Part shown: positions 55,493-62,125 of the stretch, piece by piece
How the letters are laid out: every line of letters begins with the position of its first letter
Position numbering within the stretch: the first letter of the stretch is position 1
Assembly (NCBI GenBank): GCA_017848965.1
Contig: JAFIHA010000059.1
Location: forward strand, 62,001 to 126,000
DNA: 64,000 bases
Direction: 5' to 3'
Source of the DNA: Dechloromonas aromatica (nom. nud.)
GTDB lineage: Bacteria; Pseudomonadota; Gammaproteobacteria; Burkholderiales; Rhodocyclaceae
Notes under the pieces: generated by a model
Databases searched by the model: none
Told to the model about the DNA's origin: nothing
What the model saw: the letters and a program-made list of their open reading frames with translations, nothing else
Made by a program: the position numbers and the translations under genes

Positions 55493-57091
55493 TCAGCGGC
55501 GGGCGCCGCTCTTCAGCGTCTCGAAATCGAGCGCGAAACGGGCGAGGTATTTGCGCAGGCGGTCGGCGTCGTTGCTCTGTTTCTTCCCGGCGCGGGAAAT
55601 CGCGAACAGGCGGCGGCCGGCCTCGGAAAGGCTGGGGCTGTTGCGGCAGGTGTCGATCACGGTGTTCAACTGGCAGCGCTCGAAGAGGTCGAGCTGCTCG
55701 GCAAGCTCGCCGAGTACCTGGGCGCTGGCGTCCGCCACCGGGGCATCGGCCCAGGCGGCGGTGAGGCGGGCGATTTCGTCGGCGACGTCGCTTTCCGTGA
55801 TGCGTCCGGCGCTGGCCAGCGTGGCGAGGCGGGTGAGGGAAGCGCCGAGTTCGCGGAAGTTGCCGTGCCAACGTGCGGCCTGTGAGGTGGCGAAAGCCAG
55901 GTAGCGGCGCCGCGCTTCGACGTTGAAACGCACCTGCTGGCCGTGTTCGGCGGCGAAACGTTCCAGCTCATAGTCGAGGTTGGGTTCGATGTCTTCCGGG
56001 CGGCCGGCGAGGCCGGGCAGGTCGAAGGTCCACAGGTTGATGCGGGCGTAGAGGTCTTCGCGGAACTTGCCTTGCCGTACCCACTGGCGCAGGTCGCGGT
56101 GGGTGCCGGCGATGAGCTGGAAGTCGCTGCTCGCTTCCTGGTCGCTGCCGAAGGGGAAGAAGCGTTTTTCCTCGATGGCTTTGAGCAGCATGGCCTGCTC
56201 GTCGAGACCGAGTTCGCCGATTTCGTCGAGAAAGAGCAGGCCGCCGTCGGCGGAACGCAGCAGCCCCGGCCGTTCCTGCTGGGCGCCGGTGAAAGCCCCC
56301 TTGCTGTGGCCGAAGAGCGTGGACATCGCCGAATCGCCGCGCAGCGTGGCGCAGTTCACTTCGATGAAGCGGCCTTTCAGTTGCTGGCGCTGGCGTTTCA
56401 GTTCGAAGACGCGGCGGGCGAGGAAGGACTTGCCGGCGCCGGTCGGGCCGACCAGCAGCATCGGTGCGCGCGAGCGGCCGGCGACCTGTTCGATCTGCTC
56501 GATCATCCGGTTGAACGCCGGGTTGCGCGTGGCGATGCCGGATTTGAGGAAGGACAGGTTGTCGTCGCGTTCCCGGGCGAAACGCTGGGCGATGCGGTCG
56601 TAGCGTGAGAGGTCGAGGTCGATGATCTCGTAGCTGCCGACCGAATTGGCGATCTCCTTCTTGCGCGGCGGCGAGGTCTGCAACAGGCGCGCCGGCAGGT
56701 AGTGCGCCTCGGCGAGCAGGAACCAGCAGATCTGTGCGACGTGCGTGCCGGTGGTGATGTGGATCAGGTAATCCTCGTTTTCCGTATCGAAGGGATAGCT
56801 GCGCGCCAGATCATGCAGGGCGGTGTACACCTCCTCGAAATCCCACGGGTCGCGCAGTTCCATCTCCACGCGCTTGAACTCGGTTTCCGGCGAGATGCGG
56901 GCGACGTCGTTGCCGATGCGCTCGGCCAGGCCGCGGTTGCGCAGGTCGTGGATCAGTTCCAGACGATGCACGACCAGGTCTTCCTGCTGGCACAGGGCGA
57001 CTGTCGGCCGCCACTTGTCCCAGCGCGGGCTGCCCTTGCCGGCGTAGTCGAGCTGGGTGCCGAGAAAGCCGATGACGATGGTTTTTTTCAT
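55493..57091 (-). CDS. rtcR: RtcR, sigma-54-dependent activator of RNA repair
   Basis: The 532-residue protein has an N-terminal CARF-like sensor domain (residues 1 to about 180, starting TIVIGFLGTQLDYAGKG), a central AAA+ domain with Walker A GPTGAGKS (215-222), the sigma-54 contact loop GAFTGA (265-270) and LLFLDEIGE, and a C-terminal HTH of the RtcR type. In Salmonella RtcR is switched on by tRNA fragments bearing 2',3'-cyclic phosphate. It diverges from the slipin-rtcB-rtcA operon and should activate its -24/-12 promoter at 57241. Confidence 0.96.
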   Translation of the reverse strand: MKKTIVIGFLGTQLDYAGKGSPRWDKWRPTVALCQQEDLVVHRLELIHDLRNRGLAERIGNDVARISPETEFKRVEMELRDPWDFEEVYTALHDLARSYPFDTENEDYLIHITTGTHVAQICWFLLAEAHYLPARLLQTSPPRKKEIANSVGSYEIIDLDLSRYDRIAQRFARERDDNLSFLKSGIATRNPAFNRMIEQIEQVAGRSRAPMLLVGPTGAGKSFLARRVFELKRQRQQLKGRFIEVNCATLRGDSAMSTLFGHSKGAFTGAQQERPGLLRSADGGLLFLDEIGELGLDEQAMLLKAIEEKRFFPFGSDQEASSDFQLIAGTHRDLRQWVRQGKFREDLYARINLWTFDLPGLAGRPEDIEPNLDYELERFAAEHGQQVRFNVEARRRYLAFATSQAARWHGNFRELGASLTRLATLASAGRITESDVADEIARLTAAWADAPVADASAQVLGELAEQLDLFERCQLNTVIDTCRNSPSLSEAGRRLFAISRAGKKQSNDADRLRKYLARFALDFETLKSGARR

Positions 57092-57240
57092 GGTGACGGG
57101 GAATCTGGCGGTGCGGCCCGCCTGAAGACTGGAAAAATTTATAAATCACTATAGCAAAATATCGCGAAATAAGGATTTGTGATCGCCGTGATTTTCATCA
57201 ATCCGATGAAAATCAATGGCTTGCCGATTTTCTGCTGCCC
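57092..57240. promoter_or_regulatory. RtcR upstream region
   Basis: Between rtcR and the sigma-54 promoter, this AT-richer stretch has CAATCCGATGAAAATCAATGG near 57200 and runs of A and T. RtcR enhancer sites are expected here but no dyad could be fixed by eye. Confidence 0.35.
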
Positions 57241-57257
57241 TGGCACGACTCTGGCAA
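57241..57257 (+). promoter_or_regulatory. Sigma-54 promoter of the RNA-repair operon
   Basis: TGGCACGACTCTGGCAA matches the -24/-12 consensus TGGCAC-N5-TTGCA with one substitution and exact spacing. Transcription would begin near 57268, giving a leader of about 520 nt before slipin. The adjacent divergent RtcR is a sigma-54 activator, which supports the call. Confidence 0.85.
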
Positions 57258-57381
57258 TAGGGAAGTCATCGCCGACTTGCGGCAAGGCCGACGGGTTAGG
57301 GGTTGTGACCCCGCCGGTGCGGTGGAATCAGGAGGTTTCCGGTCATTCCGCCGTATGCCGCCGTCGCGGGAAAGCGATATT

Positions 57382-57427
57382 GGGGTGCCTGGTGGCGCGT
57401 TCGGGTTCGATTCCCGGTCATCCCCCA
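57382..57427 (+). ncRNA. Mini-tRNA-like module without anticodon arm
   Basis: GGGGTG at 57382-57387 pairs with CATCCC at 57419-57424 (one G-T wobble). A short GCC-TGGT-GGC arm lies at the position of a D arm. A T-arm follows (TCGGG, loop TTCGATT, CCCGG at 57401-57417), and CCA ends the element at 57425-57427. There is no anticodon arm. This resembles the tRNA-mimic part of bacterial Y RNAs. Confidence 0.6.
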
Positions 57428-57498
57428 CTGGATAGCTCAGTTTGGTAGAGCAACCGTCTCATCAACGGTCTGTCGCGGGTTCGACTCCCGCTCCAAAA
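57426..57498 (+). ncRNA. tRNA-like element with CAT anticodon
   Basis: The D arm (GCTC 57435-57438 with GAGC 57448-57451, loop containing GGTA), anticodon stem ACCGT/ACGGT with a 7-nt loop and CAT at 57460-57462, variable loop of 5, and T-arm GCGGG/CCCGC with TTCGACT are all canonical. The acceptor pairs only over 4 bp (57429-57432 with 57492-57495); the three outer pairs mismatch (C-A, A-A, C-A). No CCA follows in the normal place, and position 37 is C rather than a purine. It is therefore a tRNA mimic or decayed tRNA-Met rather than a working tRNA gene. Confidence 0.65.
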
Positions 57499-57790
57499 CT
57501 GTCCTTCCACGACAGTGGTTAAAGCAGTACCCGCCGGCTGCGGTATGCGCAAGCACCCGCCGCCGGTCCGGCCCGGTGCTTCGCTCCGCTTGCGCGGCAG
57601 GGCATCCGCTGTCGGGCGGCAGGGGCCGCGTGGCCTGGGCGATTGGCCCGGGTCGCTGCCAGCCCCGGTTGTCCGCAGCGGCTGCCTCCCCGCGGAAGCC
57701 AGGCGAAGCGCCCGCTGGACCGGCGTGAGCCGGCAAGTTTGAGCAGTGATTGTTGACGACGATGTTTGAAGACGAAGAGGGAGTAGAAAA

Positions 57791-58927
57791 ATGTTGAAGC
57801 GTTTCATCGTGAAAAAGAACGAACGGGCCGCCCTGCTGCGCAACGGCGATTTCCAGCGCATCCTGAATCCGGGCCGCCACTATTTCTTCGACCCGCTCAA
57901 CGAGTTGTCGCTGACCGTGTGGCATACCGATACGCCGATGCTCGATAGCGAACTCGTCGATTACCTGCGCCAGAACGAGCCCGCCGAGGCGGAGCGCCAT
58001 TTCGTCTGCATGGAACTGAGCGAGGACGAGGTCGGGCTGCGCTATGAAAACGAGGTTCTGGTCGAAGTGCTGCCGCCAGCGGCGCGCCGTTTCTTCTGGC
58101 GCGGTCTGCTCGCGCAGCGGCTGGAAAAGCTTGACCTGCGCGCCGGCGCCGCCTTGCCGGCGGAGATGGTGAAACGCCTGCTGCAACCGTCCTTGCGCGG
58201 TCGCCCGGTGCTGGGGTTGAACGGCGTTTTCGTCGTCCAGGTGCCGGCCGCGCACGTCGGCCTGCTGCGTATCGACGGCGTGCAACAGCCCTTGCTGGCG
58301 CCGGGCGTCACCGCCTACTGGCGCTTCAACCGCGATCTGCAACTGGAACTGGTCGATATGCGCTGGCAGACCATGGAAGTGACGGGCCAGGAAATCCTCA
58401 CCCGCGACAAGGTCGGGCTGCGCCTCAACCTCGCCGCCACCTGGCGTTTTGACGACGTGAGCACGGCTTTCTCCAAGCTCGCCAAGCCGGCCGAACACCT
58501 TTACCGCGAGCTGCAATTCGGCCTGCGGGCGGCGGTCGGCACGCGCAACCTCGACGAACTGCTGGAGAACAAGCAGTTGATCGACGAGGTGGTGAGCGGC
58601 CATGTCGCCAGAAAACTGGCCGGTTTCGGCCTCGAAATCGGCGGTGTCGGCGTCAAGGACATCGTGCTGCCGGGCGAGATGAAGACCATCCTGGCGCAGG
58701 TGGTGGAAGCGGGTAAAGCCGCCGAAGCCAACGTGATCCGCCGGCGCGAGGAAACGGCGGCGACCCGTTCGCTGCTCAACACCGCCAAGGTCATGGAAGA
58801 CAACCCGGTCGCCCTGCGCCTGAAGGAACTGGAAACGCTGGAACGGGTCGCCGAACGGATCGACCGCATCTCGGTCTTCGGCGGCCTCGATCAGGTGCTG
58901 AACGGGCTGGTGACGCTGGCGAAGTAA
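57791..58927 (+). CDS. Slipin-type SPFH/band 7 protein of the RNA-repair operon
   Basis: The 378-residue SPFH protein begins MLKRFIVKKNERAALLRNGDFQRILNPG and has VRLNLAATWRF-like and ELLENKQLIDEVVSGHV blocks of slipins (GLRLNLAATWRFDDV, LQFGLRAAVGTRNLDELLENK). It lacks an obvious N-terminal membrane helix. Slipins often accompany RtcB in bacterial RNA-repair operons; a scaffold or membrane-targeting role is proposed, not proven. It is the first protein-coding gene after the structured leader, with GAGGGAG upstream. Confidence 0.85.
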   Translation: MLKRFIVKKNERAALLRNGDFQRILNPGRHYFFDPLNELSLTVWHTDTPMLDSELVDYLRQNEPAEAERHFVCMELSEDEVGLRYENEVLVEVLPPAARRFFWRGLLAQRLEKLDLRAGAALPAEMVKRLLQPSLRGRPVLGLNGVFVVQVPAAHVGLLRIDGVQQPLLAPGVTAYWRFNRDLQLELVDMRWQTMEVTGQEILTRDKVGLRLNLAATWRFDDVSTAFSKLAKPAEHLYRELQFGLRAAVGTRNLDELLENKQLIDEVVSGHVARKLAGFGLEIGGVGVKDIVLPGEMKTILAQVVEAGKAAEANVIRRREETAATRSLLNTAKVMEDNPVALRLKELETLERVAERIDRISVFGGLDQVLNGLVTLAK

Positions 58928-59047: not shown

Positions 59048-60268
59048 ATGAGCTATCAAGTACAAGACGTGACCGCAGGCAAGCCGATCAAGCTGTGGAC
59101 CGAAGGCGTGCCGGTCGAGGACGATGCCCGCAAGCAGCTGATGAACACGGCGCAGATGCCCTTCATCTTCCGCCACCTGGCGGTGATGCCGGATGTGCAT
59201 CTGGGCAAGGGTTCGACCATCGGCAGCGTGATCCCGACGCAAGGGGCGATCATCCCGGCGGCGGTCGGCGTCGATATCGGCTGCGGGATGATGGCGGCGC
59301 GCACCACGCTGACCGCCGCCGATCTGCCGGACAACCTGCACGGCCTGCGCTCGGCGATCGAGGCGGCAGTCCCGCACGGCCGCACGCCGCCGCGCCAGAG
59401 CCGCCGCGACAAGGGCGCCTGGGAAAACCCGCCGGAAGCTGTCGATGCCATGTGGGCCTCGTTGCTGCCGGGCTTCGCGCGCATTACCGAAAAATATCCG
59501 CGCCTGAAGAACACCAACAACCACAAGCATCTGGGAACGCTGGGCACCGGCAACCACTTCATCGAAGTCTGCCTCGACGAGGCCGATCATGTGTGGTTCA
59601 TGCTGCACTCCGGTTCGCGCGGGGTGGGGAACGCCATCGGCAACCTGTTCATCGAACTGGCTCAAGCCGACATGCGTCAGCACATCGCCAACCTGCCGGA
59701 CAAGGATCTCGCCTACTTCGAGGAAGGTTCCGAGCACTTCGCCGATTACGTGGAAGCCGTCGGTTGGGCGCAGGATTACGCGCGCCGTAACCGCGACGTG
59801 ATGATGGTGAACGTGGTTGCCGCCGCGCGTCAGGTGATCGCCAAGCCGTTCACGGCTGACGTCGAAGCGGTGAACTGCCACCACAACTACGTGCAGCGCG
59901 AAACCCACTTCGGAAGCGAGGTGCTGGTTACGCGTAAAGGCGCGGTGTCGGCCAGGAAGGGCGAACTCGGGATCATTCCGGGGTCGATGGGGGCCCGCAG
60001 CTACATCGTGCGCGGCCTCGGCAACGAAGAAGCTTTCTGCTCGTGCAGCCACGGCGCCGGCCGTACGATGAGCCGCAACGAAGCCAAGCGCCGCTTCACC
60101 GTGGACGACCAGATCAAGGCCACCGCCCACGTCGAATGCCGCAAGGACAGCGAAGTCATCGACGAAATCCCGATGGCCTACAAGGACATCGACGCCGTGA
60201 TGCACTCCCAGCGCGAGCTGGTGGAGGTGGTGCATACGCTGCGCCAGGTGGTTTGTGTGAAGGGATAG
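59048..60268 (+). CDS. rtcB: RNA ligase RtcB
   Basis: The 406-residue ligase joins 2',3'-cyclic-phosphate and 5'-OH RNA ends using GTP. Metal and active-site motifs are complete: MPDVHLGKGSTIGSVIPTQ, VDIGCGMMA with the bridging cysteine, GTLGTGNHFIEV, MLHSGSRGVGN, and the guanylylated histidine in CSCSHGAGRTMSR. GGAAAAC precedes the ATG. It lies 120 bp after slipin and 3 bp before the nucleotidyltransferase gene. Confidence 0.98.
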   Translation: MSYQVQDVTAGKPIKLWTEGVPVEDDARKQLMNTAQMPFIFRHLAVMPDVHLGKGSTIGSVIPTQGAIIPAAVGVDIGCGMMAARTTLTAADLPDNLHGLRSAIEAAVPHGRTPPRQSRRDKGAWENPPEAVDAMWASLLPGFARITEKYPRLKNTNNHKHLGTLGTGNHFIEVCLDEADHVWFMLHSGSRGVGNAIGNLFIELAQADMRQHIANLPDKDLAYFEEGSEHFADYVEAVGWAQDYARRNRDVMMVNVVAAARQVIAKPFTADVEAVNCHHNYVQRETHFGSEVLVTRKGAVSARKGELGIIPGSMGARSYIVRGLGNEEAFCSCSHGAGRTMSRNEAKRRFTVDDQIKATAHVECRKDSEVIDEIPMAYKDIDAVMHSQRELVEVVHTLRQVVCVKG

Positions 60269-60271
60269 GAA

Positions 60272-61090
60272 ATGTCCGAATTGATGGAAGCCGGCAAGGT
60301 GCGCAGCGCCCACCCCATCGCCCCGGAAGTTCGCCAACGGGTCATGCAGGCGCTCGCCGACATCGAGGCCGAACACGATGTCACGGTGCTCTACGCCTGC
60401 GAATCCGGCAGTCGGGGCTGGGGCTTTGCGTCGCCGGACAGCGATTACGACGTGCGTTTCCTCTACGTCCATCGCCTGCCCTGGTATCTCGCCGTCGAGC
60501 CGCAGCACGACGTGATCGAATTGCCGATCAGCGACGAGCTGGACGTCGGCGGCTGGGAGTTGCGCAAGGCGCTGCGCCTGTTGCGGCGGGCCAATCCGGT
60601 GCTGCTCGAATGGCTCGATTCGCCGGTGGTTTACCGGGAAGACACGGCCTTGACCGCAGGCATCCGCGGGTTGGCGACGCACTGGTTTTCGCCGCTGCGC
60701 GGGCGCTATCACTACCTGGCGATGGCGCGGCGCAATTTCCGCGAGCACCTGCAAGGCGACAGCGTGCGCCTGAAAAAGTACCTCTACGTGCTGCGTCCGC
60801 TGCTGGCGGTGCAGTGGATCGAACACGGCCTCGGCCAGCCGCCGATGCGCTTTGCCGATCTGGCCGAGCGCATGGTGACGGATGCGGCCTTGCTCGACGA
60901 AATCAACGCGCTATTGGCAATCAAGATGCGCGCCGGCGAGGCCGAACACAGCCCGCGCTGGCCGCGCATCCACGCCTTCATCGAAGGCGAGCTGGCGCGG
61001 ACCGTGGTCGATGCGAATTACAAGAAACCGGAAGGCGATGCCGGCGAACTCGATGCCTTCCTGATGCGGACGGTGCTGGCGGTTTCCTGA
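60272..61090 (+). CDS. Predicted nucleotidyltransferase (COG3541-like) in the RNA-repair operon
   Basis: The 272-residue protein has a pol-beta nucleotidyltransferase core: ACESGSRGWGFASPDSDYDVRFLYV gives the GS motif and D-x-D (metal ligands). The C-terminal helical part (RYHYLAMARRNFREHL...KKYLYVLRPLLAVQWIE) is typical of this family. It lies between rtcB and rtcA with short gaps, so addition of nucleotides to RNA ends, such as CCA repair, is a reasonable guess that the sequence alone does not prove. Confidence 0.82.
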   Translation: MSELMEAGKVRSAHPIAPEVRQRVMQALADIEAEHDVTVLYACESGSRGWGFASPDSDYDVRFLYVHRLPWYLAVEPQHDVIELPISDELDVGGWELRKALRLLRRANPVLLEWLDSPVVYREDTALTAGIRGLATHWFSPLRGRYHYLAMARRNFREHLQGDSVRLKKYLYVLRPLLAVQWIEHGLGQPPMRFADLAERMVTDAALLDEINALLAIKMRAGEAEHSPRWPRIHAFIEGELARTVVDANYKKPEGDAGELDAFLMRTVLAVS

Positions 61091-61111: not shown

Positions 61112-62125
61112 ATGGAATGGATAGAACTCGACGGTTCCCGCGGTGAGGGCGGGGGCCAGATTTTGCGGACGGCCTTGAGCCTGTCGATGATCACCGGCAT
61201 CCCCTTTGCCATCGAGCGCATTCGCGCCGGGCGCAAGAAGCCGGGGCTGCTGCGCCAGCATCTGACGGCCGTGCAGGCGGCGGCCGCGGTGTGCGGGGCG
61301 CAGGTGGAAGGGGCGGCGCCCGGCTCGCAACGCTTGCGCTTCCAGCCGGGGCCGATCCGGGGCGGCGATTACGCTTTCGCCATCGGTTCCGCCGGCAGCT
61401 CCACCCTGGTGCTGCAGACGGTGTTGCCGGCGCTGTGGTTCGCCGATGGGCCGAGCACGCTGCGGGTCAGCGGCGGCACCCACAACCCGGCGGCGCCGCC
61501 GGCCGACTTCCTGATCCGCTGCTGGCAGCCGCTGCTGCGGCGCATGGGCGTGACGCTGGACATCCAGTTGCTGCGGCACGGCTTTTACCCGGCGGGCGGC
61601 GGCGAGGTACTGGCTTCGACGGTACCGGTCACGGCCTGGCAGCCCTTGCAACTGGAGGCGCGTGGTGAGTTGCGCCGCCAGTCGGCTATCGGCATCGTGG
61701 CCGGCGTACCGGTCGACGTCGCGAAGCGCGAGATGCAGCGGGCAGCCAGCCAGCTTGGTGTGCTCGACGAGGAGTTGCGCGTGCTGCCGAGCAACGAGGG
61801 GCCGGGCAATGTGCTGATGGTCGTGCAGGAGTACGCGAATATCACCGAGGTCTTCTGTGCTTTCGGTGAGCGCGGCGTGCCGTCCGAGACAGTGGCCGAC
61901 CGCGCCGCGCGCGAGGCTCGCCTGTTCCGGGACAGCGGCGCAACAGTCGGTGAATATCTGGCCGACCAGTTGCTGCTGCCGATGGCCCTGGCAGGCCAGG
62001 GCAGTTTCACAACCCCGGCGCTTTCCTTGCACCTCGGGACCAATTGCCTGGTCATCGAGAAGTTTCTGTCGGTACGCCACGTTTTTGAAGAGAGCGACGG
62101 GGTTGTGCGGGTAAGTCTGGCGTAA
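61112..62125 (+). CDS. rtcA: RNA 3'-terminal phosphate cyclase
   Basis: The 337-residue enzyme converts 3'-phosphate RNA ends to 2',3'-cyclic phosphate. It starts IELDGSRGEGGGQILRTALSLS, has AGSSTLVLQTVLPAL and GGTHNPAAPPADFL, and the catalytic histidine near the end (SLHLGTNCLV). It is the last gene of the operon and converges on the DUF3817 gene 12 bp away. Confidence 0.97.
   Translation: MEWIELDGSRGEGGGQILRTALSLSMITGIPFAIERIRAGRKKPGLLRQHLTAVQAAAAVCGAQVEGAAPGSQRLRFQPGPIRGGDYAFAIGSAGSSTLVLQTVLPALWFADGPSTLRVSGGTHNPAAPPADFLIRCWQPLLRRMGVTLDIQLLRHGFYPAGGGEVLASTVPVTAWQPLQLEARGELRRQSAIGIVAGVPVDVAKREMQRAASQLGVLDEELRVLPSNEGPGNVLMVVQEYANITEVFCAFGERGVPSETVADRAAREARLFRDSGATVGEYLADQLLLPMALAGQGSFTTPALSLHLGTNCLVIEKFLSVRHVFEESDGVVRVSLA

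Follow-up and report, generated by a model that had tools for sequence, protein, structure and literature searches.

RNA-repair modules in which an SPFH/Band-7 protein has a cognate novel tRNA-like molecule were reportedly predicted by Burroughs and Aravind in 2016 (NAR). To our knowledge, why some rtc operons have a stomatin-like protein, and how bacterial RtcB finds its targets, are open questions. According to the available part of one report (PMC7790460), rtc operons may carry YrlA, a non-coding RNA with a T-arm followed by a D-arm, and the Salmonella operon is induced on accumulation of tRNA fragments, with YrlA fragments undetected under the conditions used. In Anabaena, a trn operon with its tRNA array, rtcB and a slipin gene are all raised in a trcR mutant, and trn and rtcB are tied to translational stress (accessible text of PMC10272220). 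The rtcB/rtcA operon of P. aeruginosa PAK rose nearly 80-fold relative to other host genes upon infection with phage PAK_P3, and deletion of rtcB had no effect on plating (PMC4933390, in the sections available). Furthermore, in strain PA14 the SPFH gene PaFlo8 lies within the rtc locus; its deletion was without effect in the assays described, and the accessible text of that study does not mention tRNA (PMC13086221).

The slipin-rtcB locus and its leader

The locus described here lies in the window, i.e., the whole 64-kb stretch of DNA that was analysed, and by its domain matches has the layout rtcR // slipin-rtcB-RlaP-rtcA. An RtcR gene, a sigma-54-type promoter, rtcB and rtcA are all present, as predicted for an RtcR-controlled rtc operon, and a tRNA-like RNA adjoins the SPFH gene of this RNA-repair operon. 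The features are the following.

55493-57091, minus strand: rtcR, sigma-54 activator, divergent (PF06956, PF00158)
57189-57215: perfect 11-bp inverted repeat TGATTTTCATC-N5-GATGAAAATCA, 5′ of the promoter, a candidate RtcR site
57241-57256, plus strand: sigma-54 type -24/-12 promoter TGGCACG-N4-TGGCA, from the sequence
57268-57790, strand of slipin and rtcB: region studied, flanked by the divergent rtcR and the slipin gene
57284-57367, plus strand: 5′ domain, with stem-loop A (57298-57312) and stem-loop B (57313-57362), ending in ATGCCGCCG (covariation, model R1)
57380-57424, plus strand: unit 1, a truncated tRNA-like module with its T-arm at 57401-57417 (Rfam, comparative group folds)
57426-57499, plus strand: unit 2, a tRNA-like cloverleaf with D-arm 57435-57451, anticodon arm 57453-57469 and T-arm 57475-57491 (ARAGORN, Rfam tRNA, covariation)
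57498-57516, plus strand: hairpin C, ACTGTC/GACAGT, 3′ of unit 2, from the sequence
57526-57734, plus strand: 3′ domain, AGTACCCGCCGG, with closing helix 57533-57539/57728-57734, hairpin D (57540-57560) and long arm E (57561-57603/57684-57725) (per-group consensus folds, covariation)
57791-58927, plus strand: slipin, SPFH/Band-7 protein, first gene 3′ of the RNA (PF01145)
59048-60268, plus strand: rtcB, RNA ligase (PF01139)
60272-61090, plus strand: RlaP nucleotidyltransferase (PF10127)
61112-62125, plus strand: rtcA, RNA 3′-phosphate cyclase (RTC cyclase, PF01137)

From the position of the promoter, transcription would start near 57267. The slipin profile matched stomatin chains in the PDB, best over profile positions 187-363, and a membrane hairpin is doubtful because the maximum 19-residue hydropathy of the protein is just 1.58. 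None of the four operon proteins had a PADLOC match at 1e-5. The phages searched with the window's slipin gave no match, and 61 plasmid records matched it, including 9 with a coverage of at least 80%; the leader of P. aeruginosa PA7 (L060), which has the RNA, found no match in the plasmid collection.

The RNA shares with the SPFH-associated RNA that Burroughs and Aravind are said to have described its place beside the SPFH/Band-7 gene of an RNA-repair operon. It differs from what the abstract of that work reportedly contains in its tandem units, one of them truncated, in the covarying 5′/3′ frame of about 450 nt, in the tetraloop anticodon arms, and in the existence of tRNA-less and RtcR-less forms. 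The likeness to Anabaena lies in the shared rise of tRNA array, rtcB and slipin gene, whereas there the loci are separate, the regulator is the repressor TrcR, RtcR is lacking and a tRNA-like RNA is not mentioned in the accessible text (PMC10272220). In the partly available literature on RtcB with slipin, SPFH/band-7, tRNA-like RNA, YrlA or tRNA arrays, we found no description of the RNA.

The two Rfam models put forward for comparison in the preliminary description behaved differently. The tRNA model matched 57426-57499 with 46 bits (cut-off 29), whereas YrlA (RF02553) reached only 28.1 bits at 57372-57481, against a gathering cut-off of 69, and an identity with YrlA was thus ruled out; in the 20 sources searched there were 0 YrlA matches at gathering level. 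The sub-threshold match spans the T-arm of unit 1 and the D-arm of unit 2, and the T-arm-then-D-arm order of the window, unlike that of YrlA, is made up by two neighbouring units. T-box, GOLLD, ROOL and other large RNAs of this sort were weighed as alternatives and had no Rfam match; in the searches made against Rfam 15, nothing except tRNA reached its cut-off. The Ro60/TROVE domain (PF05731) had no match in 19/19 slipin genomes, with 1 match in a 14-genome control, in agreement with the earlier remark that no Ro60 gene is seen in the operon.

Fold and tRNA likeness of the RNA

The RNA is a multi-domain structure of about 450 nt, made up of 5′ stem-loops, unit 1, unit 2, a hairpin and a 3′ domain. 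As proposed in the preliminary description, a structured RNA lies between the promoter and the first gene, on the rtcB strand and with two tRNA-like modules, and this observation is confirmed. Two details had to be amended. The structured leader had been put at about 520 nt, and the conserved structure stops near 57734, i.e., about 56 nt 5′ of the slipin start. Likewise, the cloverleaf of unit 2 stood, but unit 1 is only part of a tRNA, its D and anticodon arms being replaced by a short hairpin. ARAGORN found one tRNA-like gene in the entire 64-kb window, at 57426-57499, with anticodon CAT.

The strand of the RNA folds with a z-score of -5.07, and 0/100 shuffles were as good. The single-sequence minimum-energy fold lacks the cloverleaf, and in it part of the tail ahead of slipin is paired, whereas the comparative folds show the cloverleaf; in the consensus for the window's group the last ~56 nt are unpaired, together with the likely ribosome-binding region, and the group folds of Burkholderia and of the tRNA-less Pseudomonas pair part of the tail adjoining the slipin start. 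When 89 leaders were aligned globally with MAFFT, the consensus was weak (1255 columns), and separate group alignments were used instead.

Covariation was counted against shuffles without correction for relatedness. The 5′ domain was aligned from 58 of the 75 loci with the 5′ pattern (94 tried; mainly near-duplicates were thinned, and the ends of some sequences were adjusted by hand). For its 19 pairs, 94.2% of cells retain pairing, compared with 76.5% in shuffles and at most 50.3% with slid partners, and changes on both sides occur in 13 pairs (shuffled mean 10.8, with 22/500 shuffles reaching 13) and in 197 cells, compared with 57.9 in shuffles, 0/500 of which were as high; kinship is uncorrected in this count. 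For unit 2, 62 of the 88 loci that matched its pattern were aligned (94 tried), some of the matches being another or a degenerate unit (L016, L018, L020, L024, L084) and L042 being left out for its longer anticodon arm. For the 21 cloverleaf pairs, pairing is retained in 90.3% of cells, against 75.8% after shuffling and at most 42.1% after sliding, with both-side changes in 15 pairs, including all 5 of the anticodon stem and all 7 of the acceptor. The D-stem is invariant and the anticodon arm variable, and 73.1% of the cells of the acceptor helix are paired. Over the whole leader, 72 loci were placed in six hand-made groups, the structures being derived from the same alignments. In the groups of 16, 15 and 8 loci there were 165, 37 and 79 both-side-change cells (top of 200 shuffles 72, 14 and 45), and in those of 5, 19 and 9 loci 27, 227 and 67 (top of 200 shuffles 18, 86 and 37). 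The per-group folds are largely concordant on the helices, the exceptions being the tRNA units, which the tRNA-less group lacks, and differences in some outer helices. Covariation is thus seen in the 5′ domain, in unit 2 and in the leader within groups, and the lack of conservation and covariation that had been named beforehand as grounds for giving up the RNA was not what we found.

The T-arm is among the most constant elements, as are, in unit 2, the D-stem and the elbow bases. Features needed for decoding are less well kept. The 7-bp acceptor stem of a functional tRNA is absent in the window, where it has 4 bp, and 8/62 relatives reach 7 bp when contiguous pairs are counted starting at the inner end. 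Anticodon loops of 7 nt occur in 39/62 aligned relatives and loops of another length in 23/62; U33 is present in 30 of the 39 seven-nt loops, which carry 16 different anticodons. The window's own loop, CTCATCA, is 7 nt long and has U33, whereas Burkholderia sequences have GCAA, GAAA or similar (GNRA-like) loops in this arm and some Pseudomonas a UUCG-like loop. The arm is kept as a structure, because its stem still covaries. With a 4-bp acceptor, replaced loops and drifting anticodons, the units look unable to serve as decoding tRNAs, and ARAGORN calls the tRNA part as tRNA genes with scattered anticodons.

Linkage of the RNA to slipin genes

Slipin was found in 18/200 genomes of the order, 23/369 of the class and 16/299 of the phylum, and the contigs of named genomes were scanned for the best 80 of 570 relatives. 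The layout recurs as 5′ stem-loops, a truncated or complete unit 1, unit 2, a hairpin, and a 3′ domain that reaches up to slipin; many relatives have a hairpin of other sequence at the position of hairpin C, and a box resembling GTACCCGCCGG often stands between the hairpin and the 3′ domain. T-arms were counted within 700 nt upstream of slipin in four overlapping samples (order, class, phylum and the best 80 of 570 relatives), from which 2/18, 3/23, 0/16 and 4/80 loci were left out because the upstream DNA was short or the slipin match partial. A same-strand T-arm preceded slipin in 16/16, 19/20, 16/16 and 71/76 usable loci, i.e., in 115/121 usable loci of the union (114/120 distinct sequences), and these loci include another class of the phylum. 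On the opposite strand of the same 700 nt, 0 loci of the four samples had a T-arm. The pattern is loose, in that the first 700 nt of the slipin gene matched in 5/16, 2/20, 1/16 and 28/76 loci. ARAGORN called a tRNA upstream on the slipin strand in 13/16, 14/20, 13/16 and 52/76 loci, with 0 on the opposite strand upstream and 0 in the first 700 nt of slipin in the four samples.

The six loci without a T-arm are L113 and the Pseudomonas loci L067, L074, L081, L090 and L091. In these five the 5′ domains fit the 5′ pattern and a similar 3′ domain follows, and no tRNA-like unit was found. The E. coli and Citrobacter versions have one T-arm and 0 ARAGORN hits, and Citrobacter has rtcR divergent to slipin. 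The tRNA mimicry is therefore dispensable in some lineages, as seen from the tRNA-less Pseudomonas loci, L113 and these reduced forms. At the other extreme, ARAGORN called three tandem tRNA-like units, not two, in L124 and L125 (the slipin match of L125 is partial). L021 has a slipin relative with two internal stops, one TGA and one TAG, and its RNA keeps units 1 and 2.

Model R1, run on 19 slipin genomes, gave 12 matches with E<1e-3, one per genome and all a few hundred nt 5′ of slipin; 7 of the 12 loci (L009, L010, L012, L014, L015, L020, L021) are in the model and 5 are outside it. Ten weaker matches in these genomes lay away from slipin (E 0.011-0.74). At class scope a single genome of 369 matched, that of the window itself, though 23/369 had slipin; at this scope only 12 candidates per genome were scored, and many of the slipins there are divergent. 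Weak matches at the expected place were also obtained in more distant loci, such as L141 of Citrobacter (E 0.0067) and L140 of E. coli (E 0.045), and others fell at unexpected places (L129 2112-2164, L142 33-93, L132 3740-3798).

The preliminary description had set the RNA in a sigma-54-driven operon, and a specific tie to sigma-54/RtcR operons did not survive the census. Among the matches listed, 78 contig loci could be placed: 52 with an RtcR match, 14 without and 12 undecided, absence being scored only where at least 2.5 kb of upstream DNA was present, which the 12 lacked. A sigma-54-like site was seen in 44 of the 52 and, among the matches listed, in 0 of the 14 RtcR-less loci; in all 14 the RNA is still 5′ of slipin. 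In addition, sequence of rtcB or rtcA lies 5′ of the T-arm-bearing stretch in several loci: RtcB-like sequence read by eye in L023 and L024, a tblastn match to rtcB in L110, L112 and L126, and one to rtcA in L119; L096 and L106 have an RtcB match upstream as well. Since the RNA accompanies slipin in loci that lack an RtcR match and in those that have rtcB or rtcA sequence upstream of the RNA, it is tied to slipin and not to RtcR. At least two tRNA genes lie upstream in 9 of the 14 RtcR-less loci, which suggests a wider tRNA-damage response unit. In these loci (L066, L069, L070, L073, L082, L083, L086, L100, L106) the tRNA genes look ordinary and share the strand of slipin, L069 having as many as 17, and a gene for an HNH-domain protein stands between the tRNA genes and the RNA in L106 and L086. 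The RtcB match downstream of slipin in L053, L063 and L079 is just 29-32% identical to the window's RtcB and seems to belong to another branch.

Possible roles of the RNA

Three computed observations have to be explained: the fold is conserved, many relatives have lost decoding features, and the RNA is linked to slipin. We favour, with a probability of about 0.5, the reading that the RNA is a trans-acting non-coding partner of slipin in RNA repair. As the same kind of RNA stands before the slipin gene in many bacteria, it is probably functional within the repair machinery. The structured RNA of about 450 nt would be made as the 5′ end of the repair operon transcript, if transcription runs as drawn above, and would present tRNA elbow elements (the T-arm of unit 1 and the D-arm and T-arm of unit 2) inside the frame of the 5′ and 3′ domains. 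It would then be released from the mRNA; its tRNA-like part may contact slipin and/or the repair enzymes, and the RNA may help to recognise or hold broken tRNAs. The putative pairing of RNA and slipin is modelled on that of YrlA and Ro60 in other rtc operons.

Strict cis linkage to slipin is equally expected of a cis-acting leader, in which tRNA mimics would titrate a tRNA-binding factor (RtcB, RNase P or a modifying enzyme), so that slipin-rtcB expression tracks the tRNA pool. The position of the RNA upstream of slipin and on its strand, in 115/121 usable loci, suits such a leader, and autoregulation through tRNA mimicry occurs elsewhere, in the thrS leader. Because some folds (the single-sequence fold and those of Burkholderia and the tRNA-less Pseudomonas) pair part of the tail before slipin, some weight was shifted slightly from the partner reading to this one; we nevertheless regard it as rather unlikely, since the window-group consensus leaves that tail and the likely ribosome-binding region free, and such a size with several domains is unusual for a leader. 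A lower likelihood still is given to the units being cut like tRNAs, whereupon RtcB and RtcA would repair them, or their fragments would act on the CARF domain of RtcR. The induction of the Salmonella operon by tRNA fragments agrees with this, as does the presence of the RNA on the rtcB strand in the window, but the 14 loci with at least 2.5 kb upstream and no RtcR match (among the matches listed) and the tetraloops that replace anticodon loops in Burkholderia and part of Pseudomonas argue against a substrate or feedback ligand, and in the available part of the Salmonella report no YrlA fragments were detected (PMC7790460).

A decoy that absorbs an anticodon-directed or elbow-directed nuclease might account for a D-stem that is invariant while the anticodon arm varies, and for the strand shared with the repair genes. 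The 5′ and 3′ domains would be superfluous for such a role, and the 23/62 relatives without a 7-nt anticodon loop speak against anticodon nucleases; because so many of these loops are replaced, baiting anticodon nucleases is unlikely to be its general function, and we consider a decoy of either kind quite improbable. Least credible, and disfavoured, is the view that integration or duplication left behind tRNA genes that are ordinary or in decay. Several RtcR-less loci do have ordinary-looking tRNA arrays upstream, and the window's unit 2 scores above the Rfam tRNA cut-off; yet the both-side changes throughout the anticodon and acceptor stems, the fixed place before slipin and the covarying flanking domains do not fit remnants.

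The partner reading can be taken further by analogy. The vault particle contains MVP, with an SPFH-like shoulder domain, and vault RNA, and the likeness would consist of a possible SPFH cage with a small structured RNA. A slipin free of a membrane anchor could form a soluble SPFH cage of which the RNA is a structural and guiding part, and such a vault-like RNP could gather broken tRNAs for RtcB, RtcA and RlaP; we offer this tentatively and think it unlikely in this specific form. If it were true, Ro60-YrlA would embody this principle in another form in other rtc operons.

A conserved tRNA-elbow RNA tied to slipin gives a testable handle on the role of slipin and on RtcB targeting. A reduced version of the RNA is found in E. 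coli, where 1620/5426 complete genomes (~30%) contain at least 80% of the leader-slipin query, which makes it amenable to ordinary genetics; in strain DH1Ec169 just the flank is present. The E. coli locus L140 (CP061233.1) has slipin and a nucleotidyltransferase gene near lysC, without an adjacent rtcR and with a sigma-54-like site, and is possibly a second RtcR target in this species.
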